DNA of 41,672 bases from Halovenus rubra (GTDB lineage Archaea; Halobacteriota; Halobacteria; Halobacteriales; Haloarculaceae). Within the stretch, counting starts at the first letter, position 1, and each line of letters opens with the position of its first letter. This document shows, piece after piece, positions 5,414 through 38,757 of the stretch. The position numbers were made by a program, and so were the translations under genes. The DNA lies in NCBI RefSeq assembly GCF_026586665.1, contig NZ_JAODIY010000006.1, forward strand, positions 60,148 to 101,819, in the 5' to 3' direction. Under the pieces are notes generated by a model that saw only the letters and a list, made by a program, of their open reading frames with translations, searched no databases and was not told the DNA's origin.

Positions 5414-8400
5414 ATGCTCGACCAGCAGTCAGTCGATATGGCTTCACCTCTGGACAACGCACTCCAGGCGCCTGCACAGTTGTTACAGTTTGGACAAGCA
5501 GCAGCGAATGTTTCGGTAACGACGGCACATATCCATCACGAACGCGCTCTGAGACAGTTACAAGCTGAGCCAGATTCAGACCAGATTCTGCAGGCTCGGG
5601 AATTGTTGAACCAGTCGCTAACAGACTATCGAGGGAGCGTCCGAGTGCAGCGACACACGTCAAGCGTTTTCGCAAACGACACCCGTGTGTTGGAGCTTTT
5701 GGACAATTCGACTGTCTCCCAGGAAACCTACGAGACCATCTCAGCCAATCTCCTGCTCGGGGACGGGCTGACCGTGTCGACAGCGATTGATGATGCTCAA
5801 CGTGCGAGAGTCCAGACTGCCGAGCAGCTTCCAACCCAGACCAAACAGCGCGTCGAAACGCTGATTTCGGAGGCACAGTCGGAGTTCCAGGCTGCCAACG
5901 AGTCACTTGCAGCGGATGCTCCCAGTACTACGGCTCTCTCCCATTACGAACACGCTTGGCAGTCCGCACAGCGTGCACTCGATCTGCTGGACAGTGCCAC
6001 TAGCCCGAAAATAGATATCATCGAACAGCGGGTTACGGACAACGGCGAGCACGGAGTACTTCGCGGAGATATTTTTTCCATTCGGCCCTGGGAGCTGTCG
6101 AACATCACAGTTGCAGTCAATGGGACAGAACAGACCGTCAGCCTGGACACGCCATCGATCCCAGCCACGGACGCTCATTTTAATCATACGACACAAACAA
6201 CTGAGCCGGTTTCAGTGACTGTGTCTGCTGTCGATCAGCGTAACCCAGACACACAGCGGTCCTTCGAAAATGTAACCAGCACGGAGGATGGAACACTGAC
6301 GATTAGTAACGACACCGAGACAGTCGGACTGTCTCTGGAGACGGAACTTCTCGGAACAGAACTCTCGACGACATCGGCGGAAACGGTTACGTTCGACAAC
6401 CATACGCTTCAGACAATTACCAACGAGAGCGCAACGAACCTCTCCGAGCTGGACTACTGGGAGCGTGCCCACAGCCGCGCGAATAAAAGCGACACCACAC
6501 ACGAACACTGTGGCTGGCTCGGTCAGTGTACATCCTACTATTCCGAGGAATTTACAGTCGATTCTTACTCCGGTGACGTGATCAACGTCACAGTAAACTC
6601 TTCAGAGGCGGGCATCGAACTCAGCCTGCTCAGTCCATTTGGCTTTGCCGTTGCTGAGACGACTGCTGAGGCTGGTGAGTCGGCGAGCGTCACCACAAGA
6701 GCTAGCCACAATGGGACCTTCACAGTCCAAGTGCATAGCGCTACCTCACAGACGGCCATGAACTACACAGCGTCGGTCCGTCGGACAGAACGGCAGTTCG
6801 CGCCTGTTGTCTACTACGACCCGGTTACGATGGCTATTCAGGAGCAGGCGCCAACACAGACCACCGTACACACACCATGGCCTGACGGCACGTCTGACGA
6901 TCAGATACATGCAAGTACGGAAGACGATCTTAACCGCCCAACTCGTCCTAACAACTACAACTACACGGTTTCGCAACTTGTGCCAGGGACCAGCATCTCG
7001 TTTGCGGCAGCCTCGTATACGTGTACGCGTCCGGACCAGACTGCCTACAGTGGAACCACACAGAGCGTGCTCGGAACGCGGCACTACGACATGCCGTGTG
7101 CGACGGTGCAAGAGAGTGTCCGCAATCTCCAGATTCAAACGGCCCCACAGAAAGGCGAGAACACGGGCAACGTCGTGATCCTCCAAAATGGGGACCCGGT
7201 GCCGACACCTGCTGCAGCCAGTCCCGAACAGCGTAGTCTGCTCGAGATTCTTGGTGAAGAGCGGATTACTCCGGACAACCATCTGAATATTTCTGACCAC
7301 CAAGGCGTCGTGCTGTTCGAGCTAAGCTCACCAAATGCTGACTACGAAGATGCGTTTGGCTGGCCACAGGAGCCGGATTTCAACGACGCAGTCGTCCTGG
7401 TAAATCTTACTGGCAGTGGGGTTCAGGAAACAACCACGACGACGATGGTCGATTGGGATGGTCTCCCGACTGCGTACGAACGCGAGGTCACTGGAACTGC
7501 TCCAGACTCACCGAACAGTAATTCGTCTTACACCAGCCCCAATGAGTCGGCAAATGCGTTGTCAGATAGTGAAGAGGATTTCGACAATGATAACGCGACG
7601 AATGGCATGGAGTTCTTCTATGGAACGGACCCATTCGATGCCGATACAGATGGTGATGGTCTATCTGACGGGGTCGAAAATCGGTACATCCAGCTGAACG
7701 CGACGAATCCTGACACAGACAACGATGGCATAACCGATAGTGACGAGGATTTTGACGGTGATGGGCTCAAAAACGGTGTGGAGGCACAAACAAACGCAAG
7801 TCTCGTCGCTTCCGACACCGATCTGGACGGACTCATCGACACTGTTGAAATCCAGACACACGGAACTGATCCTGCCGATAAAGACACTGACGATGACGGA
7901 CTGATAGATCCAGAAGAACTCGAACTGGGAACGGATCCACTCGACCCCGACACTGACGAAGATGGCATTCTTGACGGTGACGAATCATACACGACAGCGA
8001 AAGAAAACGAGACACTTGGTGTCAGCGTCGAAGTGACCGGGCCAGGAAACATCGCAGACAGTGTCGAGATCGAGAACGCAAGCGAGCAGTTCCCCGCACC
8101 GACGGTGCAGAACTTGAGTGTCGGTTCGACTGTCGAAATCTCGGTCGACGATTCGCTTAGCGGCGCAAACTTGGCAATGAGATACGACGAGTCACAACTG
8201 AATGGCTCGGAGTCGAATCTCGCAGTCTATCGGTACAACGAGACACGTCAGACGTTCGTGCAACTCGATACCCAGGTCAATCCGACAAACAACACGGTGA
8301 CCGCGACAGGCGGGCCGACAACACAGGTTGCATCGAAAAGCACAGCGAAGGCAAGCAACGCCAATGCAGAGCCAGTGGAAGTTGATGATAGCTCGTCAAC

Positions 8401-11400
8401 GTACATCGTCGCGGACAGGGTTGCTTGGAACGAAGTGATGAGTCGTGAGCTACCCGATGTCGATATCGACGACAGTGAGTACATCGTCGATTCGCCACAG
8501 AACGTGAATATTAACGGGTTCGTTGTCCACCGCACGTTCGATGAAAAGACAGGCCGTCCACAGATTTTCATGTATCTCCACAAGGGCAACGAGAAAGTGT
8601 TCGGCTCGATGACGTTGGACAATGCAACGATCAACGGCTCGGTCAATATCAACACACAGGGACAAGGAATCGACAACCAAGGAGATAGATATCCCGAGGA
8701 AGGGAGCACAGACTCTCCGAACTGTGGAGCTGATGAAGTTTATTTCAAAACACACGAAGTTGACTTCAACCTCAACACGTGTAGTGCTCGCGACGGCTTC
8801 TTTACTGCCTACAATGTGAGTGGGGCAAACCCCACTGTTACGTTCAATATCCGGAACTACCAAGGACCGGCAAATAGGCCCATAACGTTGGGCGGTAACG
8901 GTCCGAGGCCGATTGTCCAAGGAGTGAAGCTACCGCTGACCAAGGAAAACGCAATCAATGATTCGGACGGTGACGGACTGCCTGACACTATCGAGGAAGG
9001 GGGACTGTTCATCGGCCCGACGAAGAATCTGGACAAAACGTTCGTAAAGACAGATCCAAATAACCCCGACACCGACGGTGACGGAGTTTCAGACGGCGAA
9101 GAAGTTAAAAAGCGTGGCGATAATGGCGACGGCGAATACTATCTCTTGGCGAGTGACCCAACAGAGAAAGATACTGACGGAGATGGATTGTCGGACAGTG
9201 AGGAAATGCAAGAGCGGACAATTCAGTACACGACTAGCCCCTCGACCACCACGGGCTATCTGGATGGCATCAATAGCGACGATCCAGACTTCGAGAAGTT
9301 AGAATCCAAGTACTTCACGCGGGGGAATGTCAGGTCGGATCCGATGCTGTTGGACACGGACGGCGACGGACTCTCCGATAGGAAAGAAGGTAAGCTTGGC
9401 ACAAATCCGAACGCAGCGGACACGACTGGTGACGATATCACTGATACTGTGGCCGTCGAGAACGGAATTAATCCAACGCTGTTCGACATCCAGCCACCGG
9501 AGATTGACGTGACCGACTGGGAATGGAAGAAGCCACCGATCCAGCTCAAAGTCGAGTACACTGTCAGCGCTGCCGTTACCGACAAGGCTGGGTTGAATGA
9601 ATCCACGGTGCTGAAAGACGGCAGCGTCGAAAAAACACACCCGCTGTCGGGCGAGTCGGATCGCATCGAGAGTGAGTTCACCGGTGGGGCCCTCGAAGGA
9701 ATTGCGGGGCATCTCAAAGGGACCAAAGTCTCTGTCAGGGCTACCGATCAACACGACAATACCGCCAGCAAGGTTGCGATCACCCGCTCGAACTTCTATG
9801 GCATGGCCGCCAAGGAACTGGCCAAACAGGGACTTGGAGGAGAACTTGTGGCTAAGTATCTCGGTGTCTTCTCCGGCTTTACCGTCGGCTCTGGCGAGAC
9901 CTTCAGCACGATTCGGATGTTCCTGGACGATCCGGTCGCCTACATCGAGTCGATGACAAAAATCCTCCAGGCGGTCAAACATCTCGACAAGATTCCAGAG
10001 CAGATCGACCAGCAACAGAAGCTGAACAACCCATTTGATGAAGACGACGAGACGACGAAATACCAGATCTATCGGGTCAACTGGTTTCGGGGCTATATCG
10101 GCTTTGCTGCCTTCCAGATGACTTCGCCAGGGGGACAGGTTGCCAAGGCACTGAAATCCTCCTCAAAACTCAACTCAGTCGTCAGTAAGGTCGACAGTAG
10201 CCGCTTGAGCAAAGCTGTCGAATTCGCACGCAAGGCAAACCTGAAAAAGCAGCGTGCCGTCGCGAAAACCAAGTTCAAAGTCCGCGAGCAGTTGCTCAAA
10301 GCGAAGGAGCTGACAAAATCCGGAGCAAATCGGCTGCTCGACGGTGCAAAAACAGCCAGTCAGGTGCTCCGTCGTGGAACGGTCAATAAACAGTTGGATA
10401 CCCAAACATTGCGGATTATGGCCGACGGCTCTGGCGATGTTGATGAGACATTCCGCCAGGCGGTCTACAGAGCAGCAGATGGTGACACAATTGATTCCTA
10501 CGACCAAATCGATCAAGCCATTCAAAAAACCGGCAAGTTGGATAGCGCGAAGAAGACGCGTGCCAAACAGTTGGTCATCGAGACTGACGGCGAGGGTCTG
10601 AAGCTCATCGGTGAACTTGATGACACGGCGGTAAAGAAACTGACGAGGATTGACGGGTCCGACGCGGATACCTTCCGGCAGTCGCTGGTCCGCCAGTACG
10701 CTGAGGGTGCCGTCGACGCAGCCGATATCCAACAGACCATCCAGCAGGTGCGAGAGCTTGACAGCGCCAAGCAACAACGAGCGATGCAGCTAGTCGAAGA
10801 GACGCCTGATGCGGGTGGTATCCAACTGCTTGATGAACTGGATACGGACAACCTGGGCTCACTCCTCTCTTCATGTGGAAGCTCGGTGCGAGCGTCTGTG
10901 GGCCCCCTACCAGCAGACAGCACCAGCGTGGAACCGACCACGTTGGGCTCGGGCACACGCTGTCCTGGCTTCCAACTGCTGAAAAATGCTGCTGACCCAG
11001 ACATCGACAACGCCAATCTGAACTCCTTGTTGGCCCAGCTTGACGATGCTCAGACCAAGACGCTTGCAAGAGGGTTGGCTAAGAAAGACAACCCAGGCGA
11101 GTTCCTCAACAAGATCGATCCGAAGACGATGAAACAACTCGGGAATGCCGAGACACCTGCAGGCCAGAATGTCTTCGATGTTGCGTACGATATCTCTGCC
11201 GATGGATACTCCCAGAGTGCGATCAAACAACTCGCTGACGCGGATCTCACCACGAGACAAACACAGCAGACCCTCTCAAAGCTCAACGCATACAAAGATA
11301 ATTATAAAACTTCGAATCCAAATGAAATCGCTGAGATCTATGGAGAAGTCGAACTCGAAGCGAAGCTGGGTGACGAATATGAGGTCGTCTCACAAGTCGA

Positions 11401-11734
11401 TGTCGACTATGCTAATACCGAAAGAGATACAGAAATCGACCAGTTGATAATCAAAGACGATACTGTCGTCGGAGCCGGACAACCAAAGAACCCTAAAAGC
11501 TCAAATGTCGATAACGCTCTACTAGACGCCAAGAAACAACACAACGAATTCGAGCGTTATCTTCGACAGTACGGAGTAGAAGATCTGTCTCGTCCGGAAG
11601 GTAAAGACCCCGAAATAACGCCCGACACCGTCAACAATAATCAGCTATATACACTGGGACCAACAAGTGAATTCGATATCAAGACGCTACAGAAAGACCA
11701 GATAAAGATAATTTACCAAGTATTCAGTTCCTGA
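5414..11734 (+). CDS. Giant exported polymorphic toxin: TSP3 repeats, pre-toxin helical region, nuclease-like tip
   Basis: 2,106 residues from ATG 5414 (plus the signal segment at 5280). Order: helical N-terminal part (1-220); beta-sandwich-like domains rich in N-glycosylation-type NxT/S sites (220-700); thrombospondin type 3 calcium-binding repeats with repeated DxDxDGLxD loops (about 717-860); further beta domains with a VADRVAWNEVM element (860-1180); a second TSP3 block (1182-1346); an Ig-like module (1363-1453); a hydrophobic/helical pre-toxin region from 1457 with two roughly 70-residue helical repeats (LDSAKxxRAxxLV); and a Cys-bounded linker. The C-terminal 145 residues form the toxin tip, whose E-I-D2009...Q2023-P-K2025 fits a PD-(D/E)xK nuclease core with Gln replacing Glu. 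The tip is more AT-rich than the body. A secreted or cell-wall-anchored antagonism protein is inferred from architecture; the target is unknown, DNA or RNA being likely. Confidence 0.75.
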   Translation: MLDQQSVDMASPLDNALQAPAQLLQFGQAAANVSVTTAHIHHERALRQLQAEPDSDQILQARELLNQSLTDYRGSVRVQRHTSSVFANDTRVLELLDNSTVSQETYETISANLLLGDGLTVSTAIDDAQRARVQTAEQLPTQTKQRVETLISEAQSEFQAANESLAADAPSTTALSHYEHAWQSAQRALDLLDSATSPKIDIIEQRVTDNGEHGVLRGDIFSIRPWELSNITVAVNGTEQTVSLDTPSIPATDAHFNHTTQTTEPVSVTVSAVDQRNPDTQRSFENVTSTEDGTLTISNDTETVGLSLETELLGTELSTTSAETVTFDNHTLQTITNESATNLSELDYWERAHSRANKSDTTHEHCGWLGQCTSYYSEEFTVDSYSGDVINVTVNSSEAGIELSLLSPFGFAVAETTAEAGESASVTTRASHNGTFTVQVHSATSQTAMNYTASVRRTERQFAPVVYYDPVTMAIQEQAPTQTTVHTPWPDGTSDDQIHASTEDDLNRPTRPNNYNYTVSQLVPGTSISFAAASYTCTRPDQTAYSGTTQSVLGTRHYDMPCATVQESVRNLQIQTAPQKGENTGNVVILQNGDPVPTPAAASPEQRSLLEILGEERITPDNHLNISDHQGVVLFELSSPNADYEDAFGWPQEPDFNDAVVLVNLTGSGVQETTTTTMVDWDGLPTAYEREVTGTAPDSPNSNSSYTSPNESANALSDSEEDFDNDNATNGMEFFYGTDPFDADTDGDGLSDGVENRYIQLNATNPDTDNDGITDSDEDFDGDGLKNGVEAQTNASLVASDTDLDGLIDTVEIQTHGTDPADKDTDDDGLIDPEELELGTDPLDPDTDEDGILDGDESYTTAKENETLGVSVEVTGPGNIADSVEIENASEQFPAPTVQNLSVGSTVEISVDDSLSGANLAMRYDESQLNGSESNLAVYRYNETRQTFVQLDTQVNPTNNTVTATGGPTTQVASKSTAKASNANAEPVEVDDSSSTYIVADRVAWNEVMSRELPDVDIDDSEYIVDSPQNVNINGFVVHRTFDEKTGRPQIFMYLHKGNEKVFGSMTLDNATINGSVNINTQGQGIDNQGDRYPEEGSTDSPNCGADEVYFKTHEVDFNLNTCSARDGFFTAYNVSGANPTVTFNIRNYQGPANRPITLGGNGPRPIVQGVKLPLTKENAINDSDGDGLPDTIEEGGLFIGPTKNLDKTFVKTDPNNPDTDGDGVSDGEEVKKRGDNGDGEYYLLASDPTEKDTDGDGLSDSEEMQERTIQYTTSPSTTTGYLDGINSDDPDFEKLESKYFTRGNVRSDPMLLDTDGDGLSDRKEGKLGTNPNAADTTGDDITDTVAVENGINPTLFDIQPPEIDVTDWEWKKPPIQLKVEYTVSAAVTDKAGLNESTVLKDGSVEKTHPLSGESDRIESEFTGGALEGIAGHLKGTKVSVRATDQHDNTASKVAITRSNFYGMAAKELAKQGLGGELVAKYLGVFSGFTVGSGETFSTIRMFLDDPVAYIESMTKILQAVKHLDKIPEQIDQQQKLNNPFDEDDETTKYQIYRVNWFRGYIGFAAFQMTSPGGQVAKALKSSSKLNSVVSKVDSSRLSKAVEFARKANLKKQRAVAKTKFKVREQLLKAKELTKSGANRLLDGAKTASQVLRRGTVNKQLDTQTLRIMADGSGDVDETFRQAVYRAADGDTIDSYDQIDQAIQKTGKLDSAKKTRAKQLVIETDGEGLKLIGELDDTAVKKLTRIDGSDADTFRQSLVRQYAEGAVDAADIQQTIQQVRELDSAKQQRAMQLVEETPDAGGIQLLDELDTDNLGSLLSSCGSSVRASVGPLPADSTSVEPTTLGSGTRCPGFQLLKNAADPDIDNANLNSLLAQLDDAQTKTLARGLAKKDNPGEFLNKIDPKTMKQLGNAETPAGQNVFDVAYDISADGYSQSAIKQLADADLTTRQTQQTLSKLNAYKDNYKTSNPNEIAEIYGEVELEAKLGDEYEVVSQVDVDYANTERDTEIDQLIIKDDTVVGAGQPKNPKSSNVDNALLDAKKQHNEFERYLRQYGVEDLSRPEGKDPEITPDTVNNNQLYTLGPTSEFDIKTLQKDQIKIIYQVFSS

Positions 11735-13318: not shown

Positions 13319-14125
13319 ATGAGAGAGATCACCCTCACAGAAGACGAAAAAGAGCGAGCCAAGAGTTCGGCAGAATATAATGAAAAACAACTCAGGAGGA
13401 AATATGACCAGGAATACTTTGAGGAAATTCCTGATGAAAAAGTCCCAACAGTATTATTTGGTAAGGCACTTGACCACGAGTTCCTGGCCAAGTATTCTCT
13501 GTTCGAGGGGAAAATCGAACAAGCCAGAGAACACTTCCAACAGTATATCGAGGCATTCGTGCAAAACTGTGAGAAGGTTGTAGTGACAGATGGCGTAGAA
13601 GGTGGGATTGTATTAGTACCTCTGAAATTACGAAACGCGCTCTATGCAGCGTTAATACTGGAAGACGAGACTGAGATTGAACGATTGACGACGAAGATTC
13701 TCGACCTTCCCCGAGAGGTAGAGTTCCCGTGGGAGGGTGTCGACGAGATGATTGCATTCGACGAAGAAGAATATCATCAGGCAAAGATCATTGCTATGCT
13801 CGTTCGTGGTGAAACCGAGGATCTCTCATCACATCTGGATGTGACTAACGAACTCCGCGAGGAGAAAGATGGGTTGGCCGCTCGATATCTGACTGGCATC
13901 GATACGTTCGCCAATGGAATTCTCGAAGAAGACGAAGCCACCATCGAAGCGGGAATCACGACGACCCTGAATGCCCATCACAATGACACCCATCAACACG
14001 AGAAACGGGACATCGAGGGCCTTATGATGTCTCTGGAAGCGACAGGACATTACAAACTTGCACACCGGCACGGCTTCGACGTTCGTCTCGACAGTCCGTA
14101 CATTCCCGATTCTGTCCACGAGTAA
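13319..14125 (+). CDS. Imm49-like immunity protein
   Basis: 268 residues, all-helical and acidic, with no signal peptide. It begins 2 bases after the cassette 1 toxin stop, so it is surely co-transcribed. The arrangement of tetratricopeptide-like helices with a central LVPLKLRNALYAALIL element and the ending HRHGFDVRLDSPYIPDSV match the pattern of the Imm49 family known from bacterial polymorphic toxin loci. In that family the last strand-like motif is followed by D-S-x-Y-(I/L)-P. The match is by eye only. Its role would be to bind and silence the nuclease tip just upstream. Confidence 0.65.
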   Translation: MREITLTEDEKERAKSSAEYNEKQLRRKYDQEYFEEIPDEKVPTVLFGKALDHEFLAKYSLFEGKIEQAREHFQQYIEAFVQNCEKVVVTDGVEGGIVLVPLKLRNALYAALILEDETEIERLTTKILDLPREVEFPWEGVDEMIAFDEEEYHQAKIIAMLVRGETEDLSSHLDVTNELREEKDGLAARYLTGIDTFANGILEEDEATIEAGITTTLNAHHNDTHQHEKRDIEGLMMSLEATGHYKLAHRHGFDVRLDSPYIPDSVHE

Positions 14126-31727: not shown

Positions 31728-31840
31728 TCATACTGGTGGCTGTAATTCTTTGAATCGCTGATTCCTGATTCGCCAGACGAGAGCACCTCTTTTAGAAAAT
31801 ACCAGGTTCGAATCTTCACATACTTACAGCCATCAGTATC
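31728..31840. repeat. 113-bp unit with inverted ends, copy 1
   Basis: Begins TCATACTGGTGGCTGTAA and ends TTACAGCCATCAGTATC. The two 17-bp ends are inverted repeats matching at 15 positions. A nearly identical unit follows at 31869 in the same orientation. It is a probable miniature mobile element or structured repeat. Confidence 0.7.
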
Positions 31841-31868
31841 AGCAGAGGTAACAATTTCCACGGATGAA

Positions 31869-31981
31869 TCATACTGGTGGCTGTAATTCTTTGAATCGCT
31901 AGTTCCTGATTCGCCAGGCAAGAGCCTCGCTGTTAGAAAATACCAAGTTCGAATCTTCACGTACTTACAGCCATCAGTATC
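31869..31981. repeat. 113-bp unit with inverted ends, copy 2
   Basis: Direct copy of 31728-31840, offset 141 bp, with roughly 90 % identity and a 28-bp spacer between copies. It has the same inverted ends (CATACTGGTGGCTGTAA / TTACAGCCATCAGTATC). Confidence 0.7.
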
Positions 31982-32118
31982 ATGAAGATATACTCCGGAC
32001 AGTTTCCTGTTTTGCCTGTAGGGTGCCCCCAACTTGGAACCCTGAGAGGGCGTCAGTCGGCGGCTTTAGCGCTTGTTCCGTACGAGAGTAAACTGTTTCA
32101 GAATCAGAAAAATTGCAC

Positions 32119-32334: not shown

Positions 32335-33057
32335 ATGAACCGACGTACCTTCATTCGCACAAGCAGTATTGCACTCACAGGACTCGTCGCCGGGGCTGCC
32401 GGCTGTACGGACAGCTCGGACACTCCACCACCGCGCCGATCCAGCGTCATTGAAACAGTCGCTGTGGATACAGAAGCAGACCAACTCATGGTGGAACTTG
32501 AGCCAGCCGGGGATCGCTGGGTCCAAACCCGCCGTGATGTCGATGACAGTGACGTAACCCAACCACAGAGTGATACTGGCTCTCAGTCGTCAGTGTCTTT
32601 CTCGCTGATTGGCTCGGCCCGTGCCGCTAAAGGGCGGGGTACCACGAGTCGCGCCAGCACCAGCTACAGTTCAGCCCCCACAACGCATAAAGGCCGAGCA
32701 CATTACGGTGGTGGCGCATACGTTGGAACGTGGTATAACGACCATGACGACGAAGTTGAACAGTATCCAGTTACCGTCGATACTGTCGGTATGGCGTATA
32801 TCGGCGATGAAGAAACGTTTGAGGAACAAGACCCTGGGCCCGGCCCGCTCAACTGGGATGAAACTACTGATGACCCTAACGGTGAGGTCCGATTTAGCGC
32901 CAATCGGTCTCCGGGTTGGTATCGTATCGGGACTGAAGTCGTCATTCCTGGCGAGGAAAGCGTCGATCTTGGCTGGGAATCCATCGATGCGCGAATTGAA
33001 CCGGATGGCAGTGAACCAGCAGTCACAAAAGAGTGGAAACTGTCACCACGAATCTAA
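32335..33057 (+). CDS. Tat-exported lipoprotein, first gene of the channel/aminopropyltransferase cluster
   Basis: 240 residues from ATG 32335; an earlier in-frame start would place the signal peptide internally. Twin-arginine NRRTFIR (residues 2-8), hydrophobic core, lipobox AAGC with Cys 24. The mature part has a Ser/Thr/Ala-rich stretch with a GRAHYGGGAYVGTWYNDHDD segment and ends in beta strands. A Gly/Ser-rich middle followed by a W-Y-N-D-H-D-D acidic patch recalls DUF4247-like lipoproteins seen in bacterial clusters with DUF2617 and spermidine synthase, but this is a weak resemblance. It lies upstream of the membrane spermidine-synthase-like gene. Confidence 0.6.
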   Translation: MNRRTFIRTSSIALTGLVAGAAGCTDSSDTPPPRRSSVIETVAVDTEADQLMVELEPAGDRWVQTRRDVDDSDVTQPQSDTGSQSSVSFSLIGSARAAKGRGTTSRASTSYSSAPTTHKGRAHYGGGAYVGTWYNDHDDEVEQYPVTVDTVGMAYIGDEETFEEQDPGPGPLNWDETTDDPNGEVRFSANRSPGWYRIGTEVVIPGEESVDLGWESIDARIEPDGSEPAVTKEWKLSPRI

Positions 33058-33159
33058 CACCTGGATTTACCGTAACGTATCGCATTGGGTGAGTTTGACG
33101 CCGCTGTGTGTTGTCAGCCGTCATGCACGGGGCGAACTTGATATCTCCAATCATAACGT

Positions 33160-34956
33160 ATGCAAATAAAACCACTCATAACACCGTCGAAACAAAGCGT
33201 GTTACACGTCACAGCGCTCGTTGTTGCGCTGTGTAGCTTCGCGTACGAACTCGTTTATTCTGAACTGTTAACCATCATCTACGGCGGGACCGTGACCCAA
33301 TACGGTTTAACTATTGGGTTATTCTTCAGTTCACTCGGAATCGGATCGTACCTCTGCCAACACCTCGATGATAATCGTCCTTCGAATTTCTTCCGTGTTC
33401 AACTCTACCTTGCGTTCATCGCTCCGGCCGGGTTTCTGTTCATCTTGTGGCTGAACACTGCGAGCCCACTCGCTAACGTTCCATCAGTCATCCCGCAAGC
33501 TATCGCTCGAACACCAGTCATTGCTGTCGGCGTCTTGTCCGGCTTCGAACTCCCATTGCTGTTGTCGATGGTGAACAACACAGAGCAAGACACGATTGCC
33601 CACAGCGGTGTTGAACGCGCTCACAACGCGGTGAGTTCTGGCTGTCGCCGCGTCACCAGCGTATTATTTCACACTGCAAGTGGAGACAGTGACTACACAC
33701 AGTATTCGACGGTACTAGCAATGGATTATCTCGGCGGGCTTGCAGGTGCACTCATCTATGTCTTCTATTTGTACCCTGAACTCGGCCTAATCCCCTCCGT
33801 GTTCGTGCTGGCACTGCTGAATTGTGTTGCCGCTCTCATGTTCACACTGCGATTCAGCGCGCGTCCATGGGGAATCTTCAACAGTCAAGAATCTCCTGGT
33901 GTTGAATCTGCTGTTGGGACTCGTGAACACGCCGCAGTCTTTATTTCGTTATTGTTGCTGACGAGCGTTCTCGGCGGTGCTGTCGTCAGTCATGACACCG
34001 TTGACCAAGAACTCAGTGAATATTACATCGAAGACATCATCGAAGATGAATACCCATCTGACACCGTTGAAGCGTCCGTGTCCACCCTCTCTACAACCCA
34101 ACACCAGCAAATCGTTCAATACGAACGACGTTGGGTTGGTGACTCTGACAACAAATTATTCCCCGGGAGTTCTGAAGAGTGCCTCCGGTTAGACACCGCG
34201 ATTCAACTCTGTGACAGCTGGGCAAACTCCTATCATAATGGCCTCGTCGATGTTCCGATGACGATGTTTGAGAACTCAACCGCCACTGACGTGTTACTTC
34301 TTGGTGGCGGTGACTGGATTGCTGCTGACCATCTCCGTGAACACGGTGTTTCCGTTGATCAAGTTGATCTTGATGGTGAATTCATGGAGCAATCGAAAAC
34401 CAACGAGTACCTTTCCCAGTACCACAACGACGCCTACCAGTACGAGCACTTGGACTCACATCAACAAGATGCGTACACGTACCTTGCGAACACCGACGAA
34501 ACGTACGATCTTATTTTGCTTGATCTCCCCGGTGCAACATCGGATGATACGCTGCGGTTGTACACAACTGAGTTTTACGCGTTACTGAACGAACACCTCT
34601 CAACTGATGGTGTCCTCGGGACATGGACGTACTCACAGTACTCCTACGGTGACCATCACAAAGCGTACCTGAACACCGTCTCAGATGCCGGGTTCACGTC
34701 CCAACTCCCGTACTGGGCGTACGACGACCTCAACAACAACGGTGAGACGCAACTCGGTGAACGGTTCTACCTGTTCAGCACCGAAAAGCGCGCCAAATCA
34801 CTCACACCACACACTGGAAGTAACTATGTCCAACGGTACAGTGAGAGGTACAGCGAGGCATCGTGGCAGGATATCCCGACATACGACGGAGTTGAAGTGA
34901 ACAGCATCTTTGACCCGAATTACGACGTAATCATCGACTCATATCCAGACCCATGA
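33160..34956 (+). CDS. Membrane-anchored spermidine/spermine synthase-like protein
   Basis: 598 residues. The N-terminal half has seven or so transmembrane helices (for example SVLHVTALVVALCSFAYELV and GLFFSSLGIGSYLC, then segments at about residues 80-100, 112-135, 190-225 and 250-270), as in the multi-pass aminopropyltransferase family. The C-terminal part is a Rossmann methyltransferase-like fold: ATDVLLLGGGDWIAADHLRE, the VDQVDLDGEF acidic loop that binds the nucleoside, and YDLILLDLPGATSDDTLRLY with the spermidine-synthase D-L-P-D/G motif. Family members transfer an aminopropyl group from decarboxylated SAM. Substrate and activity here are unproven. It overlaps the next gene by 4 bases (ATGA at 34953). 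Confidence 0.82.
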   Translation: MQIKPLITPSKQSVLHVTALVVALCSFAYELVYSELLTIIYGGTVTQYGLTIGLFFSSLGIGSYLCQHLDDNRPSNFFRVQLYLAFIAPAGFLFILWLNTASPLANVPSVIPQAIARTPVIAVGVLSGFELPLLLSMVNNTEQDTIAHSGVERAHNAVSSGCRRVTSVLFHTASGDSDYTQYSTVLAMDYLGGLAGALIYVFYLYPELGLIPSVFVLALLNCVAALMFTLRFSARPWGIFNSQESPGVESAVGTREHAAVFISLLLLTSVLGGAVVSHDTVDQELSEYYIEDIIEDEYPSDTVEASVSTLSTTQHQQIVQYERRWVGDSDNKLFPGSSEECLRLDTAIQLCDSWANSYHNGLVDVPMTMFENSTATDVLLLGGGDWIAADHLREHGVSVDQVDLDGEFMEQSKTNEYLSQYHNDAYQYEHLDSHQQDAYTYLANTDETYDLILLDLPGATSDDTLRLYTTEFYALLNEHLSTDGVLGTWTYSQYSYGDHHKAYLNTVSDAGFTSQLPYWAYDDLNNNGETQLGERFYLFSTEKRAKSLTPHTGSNYVQRYSERYSEASWQDIPTYDGVEVNSIFDPNYDVIIDSYPDP

Positions 34957-35474
34957 CTGCAACACAGTTACACCTCGTCCAGACCAGTGATGAACAGTCA
35001 CTGGGTGACTACGACGTGAAAACCACCATGACTAAGACGTTACTCGGTGAAACAGCTACATTCGCCGTTATTGGGAGTTCACACTACATTGCCTGCCCGA
35101 CTCTCGGGTTCTATGAACTTCTGTCCTGTCGTGACCTTACCAGCGTTGACACGTTAACGATTCCACTGACCGTCGGTGAAACAGCCCAAATCACAGCTAC
35201 TCACGACACTATCACGACAGAAACGGTGATCAATGCGCAACCGCTGCGAGAGTTTCCCGGGCTAGAAGCTGCTGACATCGCCTACCAATTCAGTGAGCAG
35301 GCGTATACAACAATCACCGTGCGTGGGCAAACCGAATACGAAACCTATCATACGTACCCGGAGTACGACCTCGCGTTGTACAGTCGAACTATCGCACAGC
35401 ACCGGTCTCACGCCAACCGCAGCCAGCGGACTGAAGTACAGTCTCTCGGCGCTGATGCTAATCAAACACGCTAA
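34953..35474 (+). CDS. DUF2617-like protein
   Basis: 173 residues, mainly beta strands, soluble. The HYIACPTLGFYELLSC and late YETYHTYPEYDLALYSRTI (conserved (W/Y)-H-T-Y-P) elements match the pattern of DUF2617, a small family found in actinobacterial clusters with spermidine synthase, DUF350, DUF4178 and DUF4247. The match is by eye and moderate. Its position between the spermidine-synthase-like gene (4-base overlap) and the channel gene (17-base gap) supports it. Confidence 0.55.
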   Translation: MTATQLHLVQTSDEQSLGDYDVKTTMTKTLLGETATFAVIGSSHYIACPTLGFYELLSCRDLTSVDTLTIPLTVGETAQITATHDTITTETVINAQPLREFPGLEAADIAYQFSEQAYTTITVRGQTEYETYHTYPEYDLALYSRTIAQHRSHANRSQRTEVQSLGADANQTR

Positions 35475-35491
35475 TCCGTCAAACGATATCT

Positions 35492-37723
35492 ATGGATTCA
35501 CAACCTGACGTTTCGACCCAGGACACCGATGAACAGACCACGACCCAATGCACGTTCACGCTCGACCCAACCGATTCGGATGTTAGCGATGAGACATCGC
35601 TGACAGAGCCATGGGACTGCCCGCATGCGACACACTCAGACTTCGATCTGTGTCCGTTTCACTTGTCTGTAAGTGAGCGGGAAACAGCGGACATTAGCGA
35701 TGACGACATCGTCGAGTTAGCCGTTGAGAAACTCACAACGGGCACGCCTGCAGAGCGTGAACTTATCGGTACATCACTTCCTGAACTCCCGTTAGGGTAC
35801 CTTGACATCGAAAACACTACCCAACACCCACTTGATCTGCGTCACAGCACGATTCGCGGTGATATAACCGCGGTACAGACTCGGTTCGAAGAACAACTCG
35901 ACGTGCGACACAGCAACGTTGGCGGCTTCATCGCAGACGACGCTCGATTTGAAGATGGGGTCCTTGCAACAGACGCGTCATTTGATGGCGACGTATCTCT
36001 GTTTGAAGCGACCGTGAGCGATGGGAACGCCGAATTCAATAACGCACTGTTTGGTGGACATGTTGATTTCAATGAGGTCACGTTCACCGACGACGTAACG
36101 TTCGCTGACGCCGTGTTTGCAGGCGAATCCTCTTTTGCCGGCGCTGAGTTTCATGGCCGAGCCGCTGAAATCGATGACAAAACCACGTTCGAGAATGCCA
36201 CATTCAACGATGTTGCCAACTTCAAACACGCGAAGTTTGAATCAACCGTGTTTCACAATGTGTCTTTCGACGACGACGCGATATTCACTCATATCGCGGC
36301 TTCAGAATCGCTCCGATTCACTGATGCCGAATTCTCGGCTGATGCTGACTTCCGTGAAGCCACGTTCAATGGCGATGTAAGCTTCGACCAGGTTGTGTTC
36401 GGTGGAGGAGCGCAGTTCACCGGTGCCGAATTCTATGGTGGCGCTGCCGTTGTCACTGACGACGTGACGTTCAGTCACTCAGTGTTCGATGGCGGTACGA
36501 TGTTTGAACACTGTACATTCGGGTACGCAAGCTTTGAACACGCCACGTTCAACGATACTGTCACGTTCGAGCGGAGCGACTTTGCTGAGGACTTGACGTT
36601 CGCTGACGCAGCGTTCCAAGACACGGCAGACTTCGATGAGATTACCGTTAACGGTGACGCGGACTTTGCAACCACGACGTTCCATGCGAACGCTGTGTTT
36701 CGCGGCTCAGAATTCCGCGGCGGCACGAATCATCTTGAAGACGATGTGATTTTCGATGATGCTATGTTCAAAGGCGATGCAGACTTCCATGATGTACTGA
36801 TTTCTTCAGCATCGTTTATGAGAACTGAGTTCTACGGCGATGCGGGCTTTACTGACAGCGAATTTACTAATCGTCTCAACATGGAAGCCGTGTCACTCGG
36901 CACAGACACGTACGTAAACTTCACTGACGCCGTCATGCTTGATGGGTCCATTACCCAACCTAGCGATGGCTGGGTCAGATTCGACTTCACGCAAGCCACC
37001 ATCGGTGACGTCGAACTGGCAGCAGCCACGCAATCAGACCGTCGGGAACTCCTTGATTATTTCCGAATCTGTGATACAGACTTCGACGGGTTTGATTTCT
37101 CTGCACACACCGAATACCTTGACCGGAACGGATGGATACTCCACGAATTTGATTCCGGCGACTACCACGACGGCTACACGGTCTCTATGACGCCTGAAAC
37201 CATCGAACGGACGTATTTAAAGGCCAAGCGAAACGCATCCAATCAAAGTAACATCAAAGCCGCAGGTGAATTCCGCGTGAAACGCCAGCAGAATGCACGA
37301 AGTAAGTTCTTTGCCATTGCACGAGATGGGTCCGAAACTCTCCGAAACCGCGTCCGAAACGGACTGCGTGCCGCTGAGAATTACTTCCTCGGGGTTACAT
37401 GCGGGTACGGACTCCGACTCTATCGAATCGCTGTCGTGTTTATTCTGTTTCCGCTGCTGTCGGCTGGGCTCTTTGCGTTCGGCGGCCCGGTATTCGAGAC
37501 GGATGCTGGACAACTTAGCATTGCTGAAGCTCTCGGCGGTGAAAAGCTCCAAACTCTTGCGCTGAACGTGTACTTCAGTTATATCACGTTCCTCACCATT
37601 GGGTACGGGAACATCGCACCAGACGGCCTCGGCGCGCGCGCTGTCAGTGCGTTGCTTGTATACGCGAACGTGATTCTCGCCGGGCTTGTCCTGTACGCGC
37701 TCATCAAACGGAGCGAAGTATGA
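35492..37723 (+). CDS. Pentapeptide-repeat protein fused to a potassium-channel pore
   Basis: 743 residues. After a short His/Cys stretch (WDCPHATHSDFDLCPFHL, possibly zinc-binding, residues 42-60), residues 115-540 consist of about forty pentapeptide-like units of the form F-x-(D/N)-(A/V)-x with frequent ADF, ATF and AEF, which fold into a right-handed quadrilateral beta helix. Residues 600-743 contain two hydrophobic helices (about 637-665 and 712-735) around a pore loop with the filter T702-I-G-Y-G-N707, the potassium-selectivity signature. Such fusions are known in bacteria and archaea; the helix probably senses or gates. Cytoplasmic placement of the repeat is inferred. Confidence 0.85.
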   Translation: MDSQPDVSTQDTDEQTTTQCTFTLDPTDSDVSDETSLTEPWDCPHATHSDFDLCPFHLSVSERETADISDDDIVELAVEKLTTGTPAERELIGTSLPELPLGYLDIENTTQHPLDLRHSTIRGDITAVQTRFEEQLDVRHSNVGGFIADDARFEDGVLATDASFDGDVSLFEATVSDGNAEFNNALFGGHVDFNEVTFTDDVTFADAVFAGESSFAGAEFHGRAAEIDDKTTFENATFNDVANFKHAKFESTVFHNVSFDDDAIFTHIAASESLRFTDAEFSADADFREATFNGDVSFDQVVFGGGAQFTGAEFYGGAAVVTDDVTFSHSVFDGGTMFEHCTFGYASFEHATFNDTVTFERSDFAEDLTFADAAFQDTADFDEITVNGDADFATTTFHANAVFRGSEFRGGTNHLEDDVIFDDAMFKGDADFHDVLISSASFMRTEFYGDAGFTDSEFTNRLNMEAVSLGTDTYVNFTDAVMLDGSITQPSDGWVRFDFTQATIGDVELAAATQSDRRELLDYFRICDTDFDGFDFSAHTEYLDRNGWILHEFDSGDYHDGYTVSMTPETIERTYLKAKRNASNQSNIKAAGEFRVKRQQNARSKFFAIARDGSETLRNRVRNGLRAAENYFLGVTCGYGLRLYRIAVVFILFPLLSAGLFAFGGPVFETDAGQLSIAEALGGEKLQTLALNVYFSYITFLTIGYGNIAPDGLGARAVSALLVYANVILAGLVLYALIKRSEV

Positions 37724-37797
37724 CCGAAATCCTCATCGTTCACATACCTGCACGCAGTATCAACACATAACACGAAACCCGTACTCCTACTACAACA

Positions 37798-38757
37798 ATG
37801 ACTCAGCCAAATCAGACATATACCGGCGACGTAACGCTCAACGGTGATGAAACGCCACCAGTCGAAGTCACTGGCCCCGAAAATGTCTATCTCAGACACG
37901 ACAGCATCCGCGGAGACCTACAAATCACAAACGCAGAGTATGTATACACCGCTACTCCGGCAGGTGAAACCGTCGAAATTACCGACACAAACACGACTAT
38001 CACCGGCGATATTGAGGATGGGTACGCTGACCCTCAGGGTGTTAGCGGTGACGTTGTGGTTAGCAATGCTGAAGACGTATTCATTGAACACGGCGCTGTT
38101 GAGGGTGACGTACAAATCATCGGCGATGAACAGCGATTTACCACGCAATCTCCCACCCAGACCCCAAGCCTTGGCAGGCACGACACTGTAATTCAGGGCT
38201 GGAAGCGTTCACAGACGGTCCCTGACCCTGACGTTGGCGTAAGTGTTGTCGGCGCTCAAAATACTGTTACAATTCCAGACGTGGAGAATAACTTCGAACT
38301 ATACATCACCGGCGTTGACAACACCGTCAGAGTTGAGGGACACCGGATCACGGCCTCCATTCACTTTATCGGAGCGGACAACACTGTCGAAACCAGTCCG
38401 TACGTGAACACGACCGTGAAAACTGACACCGGAATCGATAATTCTGTCAACACCGATACCATCCCTGTCGAAGATCTGATTGAAACATCAAAGAAAGAAG
38501 CCTACAGCAATGCATTCATCGGCCGGAAAAAGATCATGTATCAACAACCAGCGCCCGAGCAACCACACTGCCCATCGTGCGGTGCGGACGCTGATGCAAT
38601 CATCGAACGATGTCGTGAAGACGCGTGGTTTCTGTTCCGTTATCCGATTTATCACTTCGAAGCCGACGGTGATGTGTACGAATGCGATGAATGTACAACC
38701 ACAGCGTTGAATGACGTATTGCTTACCGAACAAGAACGTAAACAAGCATTCCAGTAG
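37798..38757 (+). CDS. Beta-repeat protein with C-terminal zinc ribbon
   Basis: 319 residues. Residues 1-225 are built of short beta-strand repeats with recurring G-D-(V/L)-x-(V/I/L), NTV and DNTV turns (TGVDNTVRVEG, IGADNTVETSP), which suggests a solenoid or DUF3060-like fold. The C-terminus has C258-P-S-C261 and C296-D-E-C299, a zinc ribbon with a 34-residue insertion. There is no signal peptide, so it is cytoplasmic. It lies 74 bases after the channel gene and shares the repeated-strand style of that protein, so it is probably its partner. I do not recognise the exact family. Confidence 0.65.
   Translation: MTQPNQTYTGDVTLNGDETPPVEVTGPENVYLRHDSIRGDLQITNAEYVYTATPAGETVEITDTNTTITGDIEDGYADPQGVSGDVVVSNAEDVFIEHGAVEGDVQIIGDEQRFTTQSPTQTPSLGRHDTVIQGWKRSQTVPDPDVGVSVVGAQNTVTIPDVENNFELYITGVDNTVRVEGHRITASIHFIGADNTVETSPYVNTTVKTDTGIDNSVNTDTIPVEDLIETSKKEAYSNAFIGRKKIMYQQPAPEQPHCPSCGADADAIIERCREDAWFLFRYPIYHFEADGDVYECDECTTTALNDVLLTEQERKQAFQ

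Follow-up and report, generated by a model that had tools for sequence, protein, structure and literature searches.

Bacterial membrane-speE clusters, in which seven transmembrane (TM) segments are fused to an aminopropyltransferase domain, have been described together with DUF350, DUF4178, SPFH/PspA and speD (PMC11237479), and some variants also carry a lipoprotein and an ion channel. An actinobacterial variant combines DUF2617 with DUF4247 (CCP45394/CCP45395; PMC11237479), and DUF2617 appears there just as a predicted enzyme of beta-sandwich fold in which two histidines and some acidic residues are conserved. For SpeD, the S-adenosylmethionine (AdoMet) decarboxylase (AdoMetDC), the roles of the pyruvoyl group, His and Cys have been described (PMC10407285), as has a two-domain fused AdoMetDC; so far, this fused, two-repeat, split-site form has been found in eukaryotes and in some bacteria but not detected in archaea (PMC10407285). 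Here, we analyzed 41,672 nt of Halovenus rubra DNA (hereafter the window; GCF_026586665.1, NZ_JAODIY010000006.1, 60,148-101,819, forward strand), in which a module of five intact open reading frames at 32335-38757 encodes a twin-arginine translocation (Tat) lipoprotein, a membrane aminopropyltransferase-like protein, a DUF2617 protein, a predicted pentapeptide-repeat potassium channel and a beta-repeat protein with a zinc ribbon. All five lie on the + strand, with intergenic gaps of ~17-100 nt and one 4-nt overlap. This agrees with the first-pass annotation of this DNA, which had reported five same-direction genes with short gaps or overlaps, and its domain calls also hold.

The module is a variant of the bacterial membrane-aminopropyltransferase clusters that has not been described before. 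It shares with the clusters of Novosphingobium (L074) and Alteromonas (L075) the fusion of seven TM segments to an aminopropyltransferase, the conserved clustering and a membrane partner, and a lipoprotein and an ion channel as in some bacterial variants. In contrast to the bacterial clusters, it lacks DUF350, DUF4178, SPFH and speD, and it contains a pentapeptide two-TM channel, a zinc-ribbon beta protein and a transferase in which a catalytic gate Asp is replaced by Gly. None of the five module proteins matched DUF350 or DUF4178. By its description, the actinobacterial variant is similar in that DUF2617 has a lipoprotein and polyamine-type genes as neighbours; it differs in that the haloarchaeal unit has no DUF350 and that the haloarchaeal lipoprotein matched no Pfam family, so that a known lipoprotein family was rejected for all 30 members. 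The earlier reading of the locus as an archaeal version of the bacterial spermidine-synthase clusters with a new channel architecture was therefore borne out, with the pentapeptide channel replacing DUF350 and the bacterial channels. Beyond that reading, DUF2617 looks like a remote relative of AdoMetDC, and the catalytic gate of the transferase is altered. The DUF2617 gene and its sites are as follows.

34953..35474, + strand: DUF2617 protein, beta-rich fold with a possible two-repeat layout, very probable remote AdoMetDC homologue; overlaps the transferase gene by 4 nt
35079..35084, + strand: Ser43-His44 of DUF2617, invariant; Ser43 is the proposed pyruvoyl precursor and the presumed counterpart of SpeD S63
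35127..35129, + strand: Cys59 of DUF2617, invariant; proposed counterpart of SpeD C83
35337..35363, + strand: YETYHTYPE motif of DUF2617, in which Thr131, His133 and Glu137 are invariant; corresponds in the alignment to SpeD SIHTWPE (His68)

The DUF2617 protein of the window matched Pfam PF10936 with E = 2e-4 and 21.9 bits, 0.4 under the cut-off of 22.3, and all 30 orthologues (30/30) matched the same family, many above the cut-off (best E 8.8e-10). The starting clue for a comparison with SpeD was a weak match of one member to AdoMet_dc (E 0.058). When 30 DUF2617 sequences were aligned by hhalign with 12 SpeD sequences, the probability was 65% (E 6e-5), and with 49 and 45 sequences it was 81.5% (E 1.1e-5, score 38.3); the scores of 100 column shuffles were at most 19.4, and the lipoprotein and beta protein alignments, used as controls, gave probabilities of 0.1-0.4%. 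Searched against all PDB sequences, the DUF2617 profile found a single match at E <= 10, which was a SpeD (2iii, E 0.19). In the opposite direction, a SpeD profile gave 25 weak matches among 16,895 reading frames from 83 haloarchaeal loci, and 20 of these, including the top seven, were DUF2617 proteins, which make up 0.5% of the frames. The aligned segment reads F..xA.T...YETYHTYPE in DUF2617 and F..xG.T...ESHISIHTWPE in SpeD. An HT[W/Y]PE core and a preceding F..G/A.T pattern are common to DUF2617, prokaryotic SpeD and the fused eukaryotic class 2 AdoMetDC. In this alignment, His133 falls on SpeD His68 and Thr119 coincides with a position held by Ser or Thr, but the position of the pyruvoyl Ser is lost there. 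Furthermore, two members were modelled with AlphaFold2 (predicted local distance difference test scores of 92 and 90), and for both models Foldseek ranked an AdoMetDC first in the PDB (6bm7, probability 0.92/0.82; 1msv, 0.96, for the first model). At the level of sequence profiles, these comparisons show a relationship between the C-terminal half of the protein and the SpeD core, and we consider DUF2617 very probably homologous to AdoMetDC.

In human AdoMetDC, the active site is divided between two fused halves. Ser43, His44, Cys59, Thr119, His133 and Glu137 of DUF2617 were invariant in 49 sequences. Taking the second-half match together with the invariant Ser43-His44 and Cys59 of the first half and the human layout, we propose that DUF2617 may be an AdoMetDC relative built of two repeats, whose split active site would be complete, with a putative register for the first half. 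Several observations weigh against this reading. The best DUF2617 member reached 14.2 bits against the PF02675 cut-off of 25, and DUF2617 stays below every curated cut-off for AdoMetDC. The N-terminal half alone, which carries Ser43 and Cys59, did not score above shuffles against SpeD by hhalign, although the alignment selected the register of Ser43 with SpeD S63, and the residue preceding Ser43 is not Glu in every sequence. As for the fold, the Foldseek E-value was ~0.02 (> 0.01) with TM-scores of at most 0.46, so the match is no more than suggestive, and the outer helices of AdoMetDC are missing from DUF2617. A fold search of BFVD with DUF2617 returned weak matches alone, with a phage SpeD at rank 16. 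A comparison of the N-terminal repeat with the C-terminal repeat of DUF2617 itself was also tried by hhalign and was not above shuffles. The chances that DUF2617 is an active decarboxylase appear evenly balanced.

To define the distribution of the module, 293 Halobacteriales genomes were surveyed with separate profile searches for DUF2617 and the transferase. DUF2617 was found in 42 genomes, and the transferase profile returned the identical set, with none extra and none missing (log10 P ~ -51, assuming independent sets and ignoring phylogeny). The lipoprotein was present in all 42 genomes and three more, and the zinc-ribbon beta protein in 41 of them and one other. In 40 loci retrieved by DUF2617 alone, the lipoprotein and the transferase were each found 39 times, the beta protein 38 times and the channel 37 times, and some of the missing genes lie beyond contig ends. 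In addition, the pairwise distances of the five proteins were correlated (Mantel r 0.75-0.91), with 0 of 2000 permutations as high. The five genes thus travel together and co-diverge. The first-pass annotation had named a lack of co-occurrence in other genomes as grounds for refuting it, and the five genes were instead found adjacent at the loci retrieved by DUF2617 alone. Its five-gene grouping stands as a real unit; the fixed core, however, is the lipoprotein-transferase-DUF2617 order alone, while the channel and the beta protein shift order and strand among loci. Those shifts would suit an explanation in which the genes are unrelated neighbours, or in which a family likeness has been read into background sequence, but two unrelated families occupy identical 42-genome sets, two more occupy near-identical ones, and the divergence is correlated. 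Chance neighbourhood was ruled out by these co-occurrence data, the probability of such an explanation being practically negligible, and it is virtually certain that the five genes form one functional unit.

The distribution was patchy, with carriers in 21 of 87 genera, including Haloferax, Natrinema, Halorussus, Haloarcula, Halosimplex and Natrialba, both on chromosomes and, often, on megaplasmids. Among 393 sampled genomes of the phylum, no match fell outside Halobacteriales. The module has most likely spread horizontally among haloarchaea as an envelope module. One megaplasmid (genome G114, contig C2; L061, L062) has the module twice, in nearly identical form, and in one copy the transferase gene is split into two frames. 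At loci L065-L067 (5.7-10.3 kb) of one genus, the beta protein is encoded by two genes, one for an 80-aa N-terminal part and one for the C-terminal zinc-ribbon part.

The genomic context also bears on the relation of DUF2617 to speD. The AdoMetDC family PF02675 was detected in 0/42 module genomes, while the same search was positive in 8/14 control genomes, M. jannaschii and Sulfolobus among them. Of seven bacterial loci that encode a membrane transferase of full length, six had speD within ~6 kb, and none had DUF2617. In haloarchaea, where polyamine genes are expected to be lacking, a Halobaculum rubrum plasmid (L200:6984-8762) is an exception: it encodes a canonical soluble speE, with an ordinary, canonical speD two genes upstream of it. 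The lack of a recognisable AdoMetDC in the 42 genomes and the presence of speD near the bacterial transferases argue that DUF2617 takes the place of speD. In the control search, DUF2617 was present in Corynebacterium glutamicum and, among archaea, in Haloferax volcanii. The features of the transferase, the partner of DUF2617 in all 42 genomes, are listed below.

33160..34956, + strand: membrane aminopropyltransferase-like protein with 7 predicted TM segments (residues 14-270) and a spermidine-synthase-fold domain; PF01564, 53.5 bits
34180..34212, + strand: Cys341/Cys351 of the transferase domain, invariant; possible disulphide
34303..34314, + strand: GGGD donor-binding motif, residues 382-385, invariant; D385 in 30/30
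34522..34533, + strand: gate motif D455-x-P457-G458, where the D-x-x-D-P pattern has Gly for its second catalytic Asp; G458 in 30/30

The transferase exceeded the Spermine_synth (PF01564) cut-off of 22.9, and its closest solved structures were aminopropyltransferases (1uir, E 2e-22). The spermidine synthase equivalog NF002956 (NCBIfam) was not reached (210 bits against a cut-off of 472). In spermidine synthases, the roles of the donor-site and gate residues are known. Three donor-site acids (D385, D405 and D437) were conserved in 30/30 sequences, and so was D455, the first Asp of the gate. The second gate Asp, however, is Gly458 in all 30 haloarchaeal sequences, whereas the bacterial membrane relatives retain D-F/L-P-D-P; this loss makes ordinary putrescine an unlikely acceptor. 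Asp462, found in 28/30 sequences, might substitute for the lost Asp. The invariant Cys341/Cys351 pair is absent from the Novosphingobium relative. By the positive-inside rule applied to the seven TM segments, which were predicted by simple hydropathy, the N-terminus lies inside and the catalytic domain outside, and we tentatively suggest, at somewhat under even likelihood, that the catalytic domain may face outward. The same rule gives an extracytoplasmic aminopropyltransferase domain in the bacterial relatives (L074, L075, L076) and the archaeal ones alike. Two points tell against a working enzyme on the outer face: the invariant gate Gly could mean an inactive transferase domain or other chemistry, and an outside catalytic domain would require exported decarboxylated AdoMet.

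The altered gate would also fit a different role for the pair. DUF2617 may have an AdoMetDC-like fold without decarboxylase activity and act as a sensor of AdoMet or a polyamine-like ligand, or as an allosteric partner comparable to a dead prozyme, with the transferase being an inactive receptor or carrying out another AdoMet-dependent reaction. The Gly at the gate in 30/30 transferases agrees with this, as do the top Foldseek matches of DUF2617, which were trypanosome AdoMetDC/prozyme entries, and the lack of significant SpeD likeness in the half that bears the proposed Ser and Cys. However, dead enzymes usually lose such residues, and here the six candidate site residues of DUF2617 are all invariant, as are the acids of the donor site in the transferase. 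We consider the sensor explanation less likely than not, and return to DUF2617 as a candidate decarboxylase that would act together with the remaining three proteins:

32335..33057, + strand: Tat lipoprotein with an RR Tat motif (RRTF) and lipobox Cys24; no known domain
35492..37723, + strand: pentapeptide/K+ channel protein with an N-terminal Cys/His motif, a pentapeptide beta-helix and a 2-TM pore
37595..37612, + strand: TIGYGN selectivity filter of the channel; Thr702, Gly704, Tyr705 and Gly706 invariant (n = 27 sequences)
37798..38757, + strand: beta-repeat protein with a C-terminal zinc ribbon (CxxCG ... CExC); C258, C261, C296 and C299 invariant in 24 orthologues

The fourth gene encodes a predicted two-TM potassium channel with a TxGYG filter: it matched Pentapeptide_3 with 143 bits (E 3e-42) and Ion_trans_2 with 31.5 bits (cut-off 22.5), and TM segments 646-664 and 717-735 flank the TIGYGN filter, as in the pores of other two-TM K+ channels. 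By profile, the pore was closest to KCNT1, TOK and KirBac. In contrast to KirBac and KCNT1, which have a Kir/RCK regulatory domain, the protein carries an N-terminal region of ~640 residues that is mostly pentapeptide beta-helix. The channel profile matched 102 genomes, which places the channel in a wider family. Near full-length homologues were found at G152:C4:64006-66114, G035:C1:1004165-1006285 and G075:C1:2089013-2091145 in genomes that have neither DUF2617 nor the transferase, suggesting that the pentapeptide channel acts outside the module too. Polyamines regulate K+ channels (PMC11107197), so an aminopropyl product is a plausible ligand, and gating of the channel by such a product is possible, though we hold it to be less than probable: relatives of the channel occur without the rest of the module. 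Arg4, Gly23 and Cys24 of the lipoprotein were invariant in 30 orthologues, and its gene always lies directly upstream of the transferase gene. The beta protein was rejected as a DUF4178 member; a weak DUF3060 match, in addition to the zinc ribbons, was found in 24/24 orthologues. Upstream of the module, a 114-nt direct repeat (91% identical) lies at 31728-31841 and 31869-31982, with inverted arms of ~29 nt in each copy. Elsewhere in the window, a 2106-aa protein with TSP3 calcium-binding repeats (5414-11734) is followed by an Imm49 immunity-like protein (13319-14125), resembling a polymorphic toxin/immunity locus.

These features are consistent with an envelope module that may make an aminopropyl product near a K+ channel, and the full mechanism, at a little less than even likelihood, would comprise four steps, which we infer and list in order of decreasing certainty. 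First, DUF2617 would replace speD and decarboxylate AdoMet or a related molecule via a pyruvoyl group formed from Ser43, with an active site to which repeat 1 would contribute Ser43 and Cys59 and repeat 2 Thr119 and His133, by analogy with eukaryotic AdoMetDC, whose halves share one active site. Second, the membrane protein would transfer the aminopropyl group from decarboxylated AdoMet to an acceptor other than ordinary putrescine, because the donor site is intact and the catalytic gate Asp is lost. Third, the catalytic domain would face outward, beside the Tat lipoprotein. Fourth, the pentapeptide channel would be gated by the cationic product or by a modified partner. The lipoprotein and the beta-helix would sense an envelope or ionic stress, to which K+ flow and, with it, membrane potential would respond, a coupling to membrane potential that the first-pass annotation had also put forward as a hypothesis. 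The beta protein with the zinc ribbon may be a cytoplasmic partner. In the most specific version, DUF2617 would be a new AdoMetDC class of two fused repeats with one split active site and would feed an outward aminopropyltransferase, which, by modifying a molecule of the envelope, would control a pentapeptide-gated K+ channel. This version seems to us rather unlikely as a whole.

The first-pass annotation had also raised phage or toxin defence, for which PADLOC and the neighbouring genes gave no positive support. As an anti-virus or abortive-infection module, infection would trigger the enzyme pair, whose product would open the channel and depolarise the cell. The patchy, often megaplasmid-borne spread would suit such a role, and the pentapeptide-plus-channel effector recalls HalA of Hailong (weak match, E 0.0025). 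However, the HalA model NF051894 gave 17.1 bits against a cut-off of 250, and Hailong membership was rejected on this basis. PADLOC found no match for the other four proteins, except for a weak Mads2 match to the Rossmann domain of the transferase. Among 83 neighbours, the defence-model matches were just generic helicases and similar broad families and the rest were metabolic; with nothing specific from PADLOC and ordinary metabolic genes and generic helicases as immediate neighbours, the locus showed no sign of a defence island. Carriage by viruses was rejected as well, with no channel homologue in phage records and no DUF2617 relative in viral contigs. An anti-virus role is thus quite improbable.

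DUF2617, which also occurs in Actinobacteria (CCP45394, PMC11237479), had no assigned function, and because H. volcanii carries such a gene and is amenable to genetics, the idea can be tested. If DUF2617 is a decarboxylase, it would supply the missing substrate for a membrane transferase family of unexplained purpose and would reveal a polyamine-type reaction in haloarchaea that have no AdoMetDC. If true, it would also represent a two-repeat AdoMetDC relative in archaea, with a bearing on the origin of the eukaryotic enzyme.

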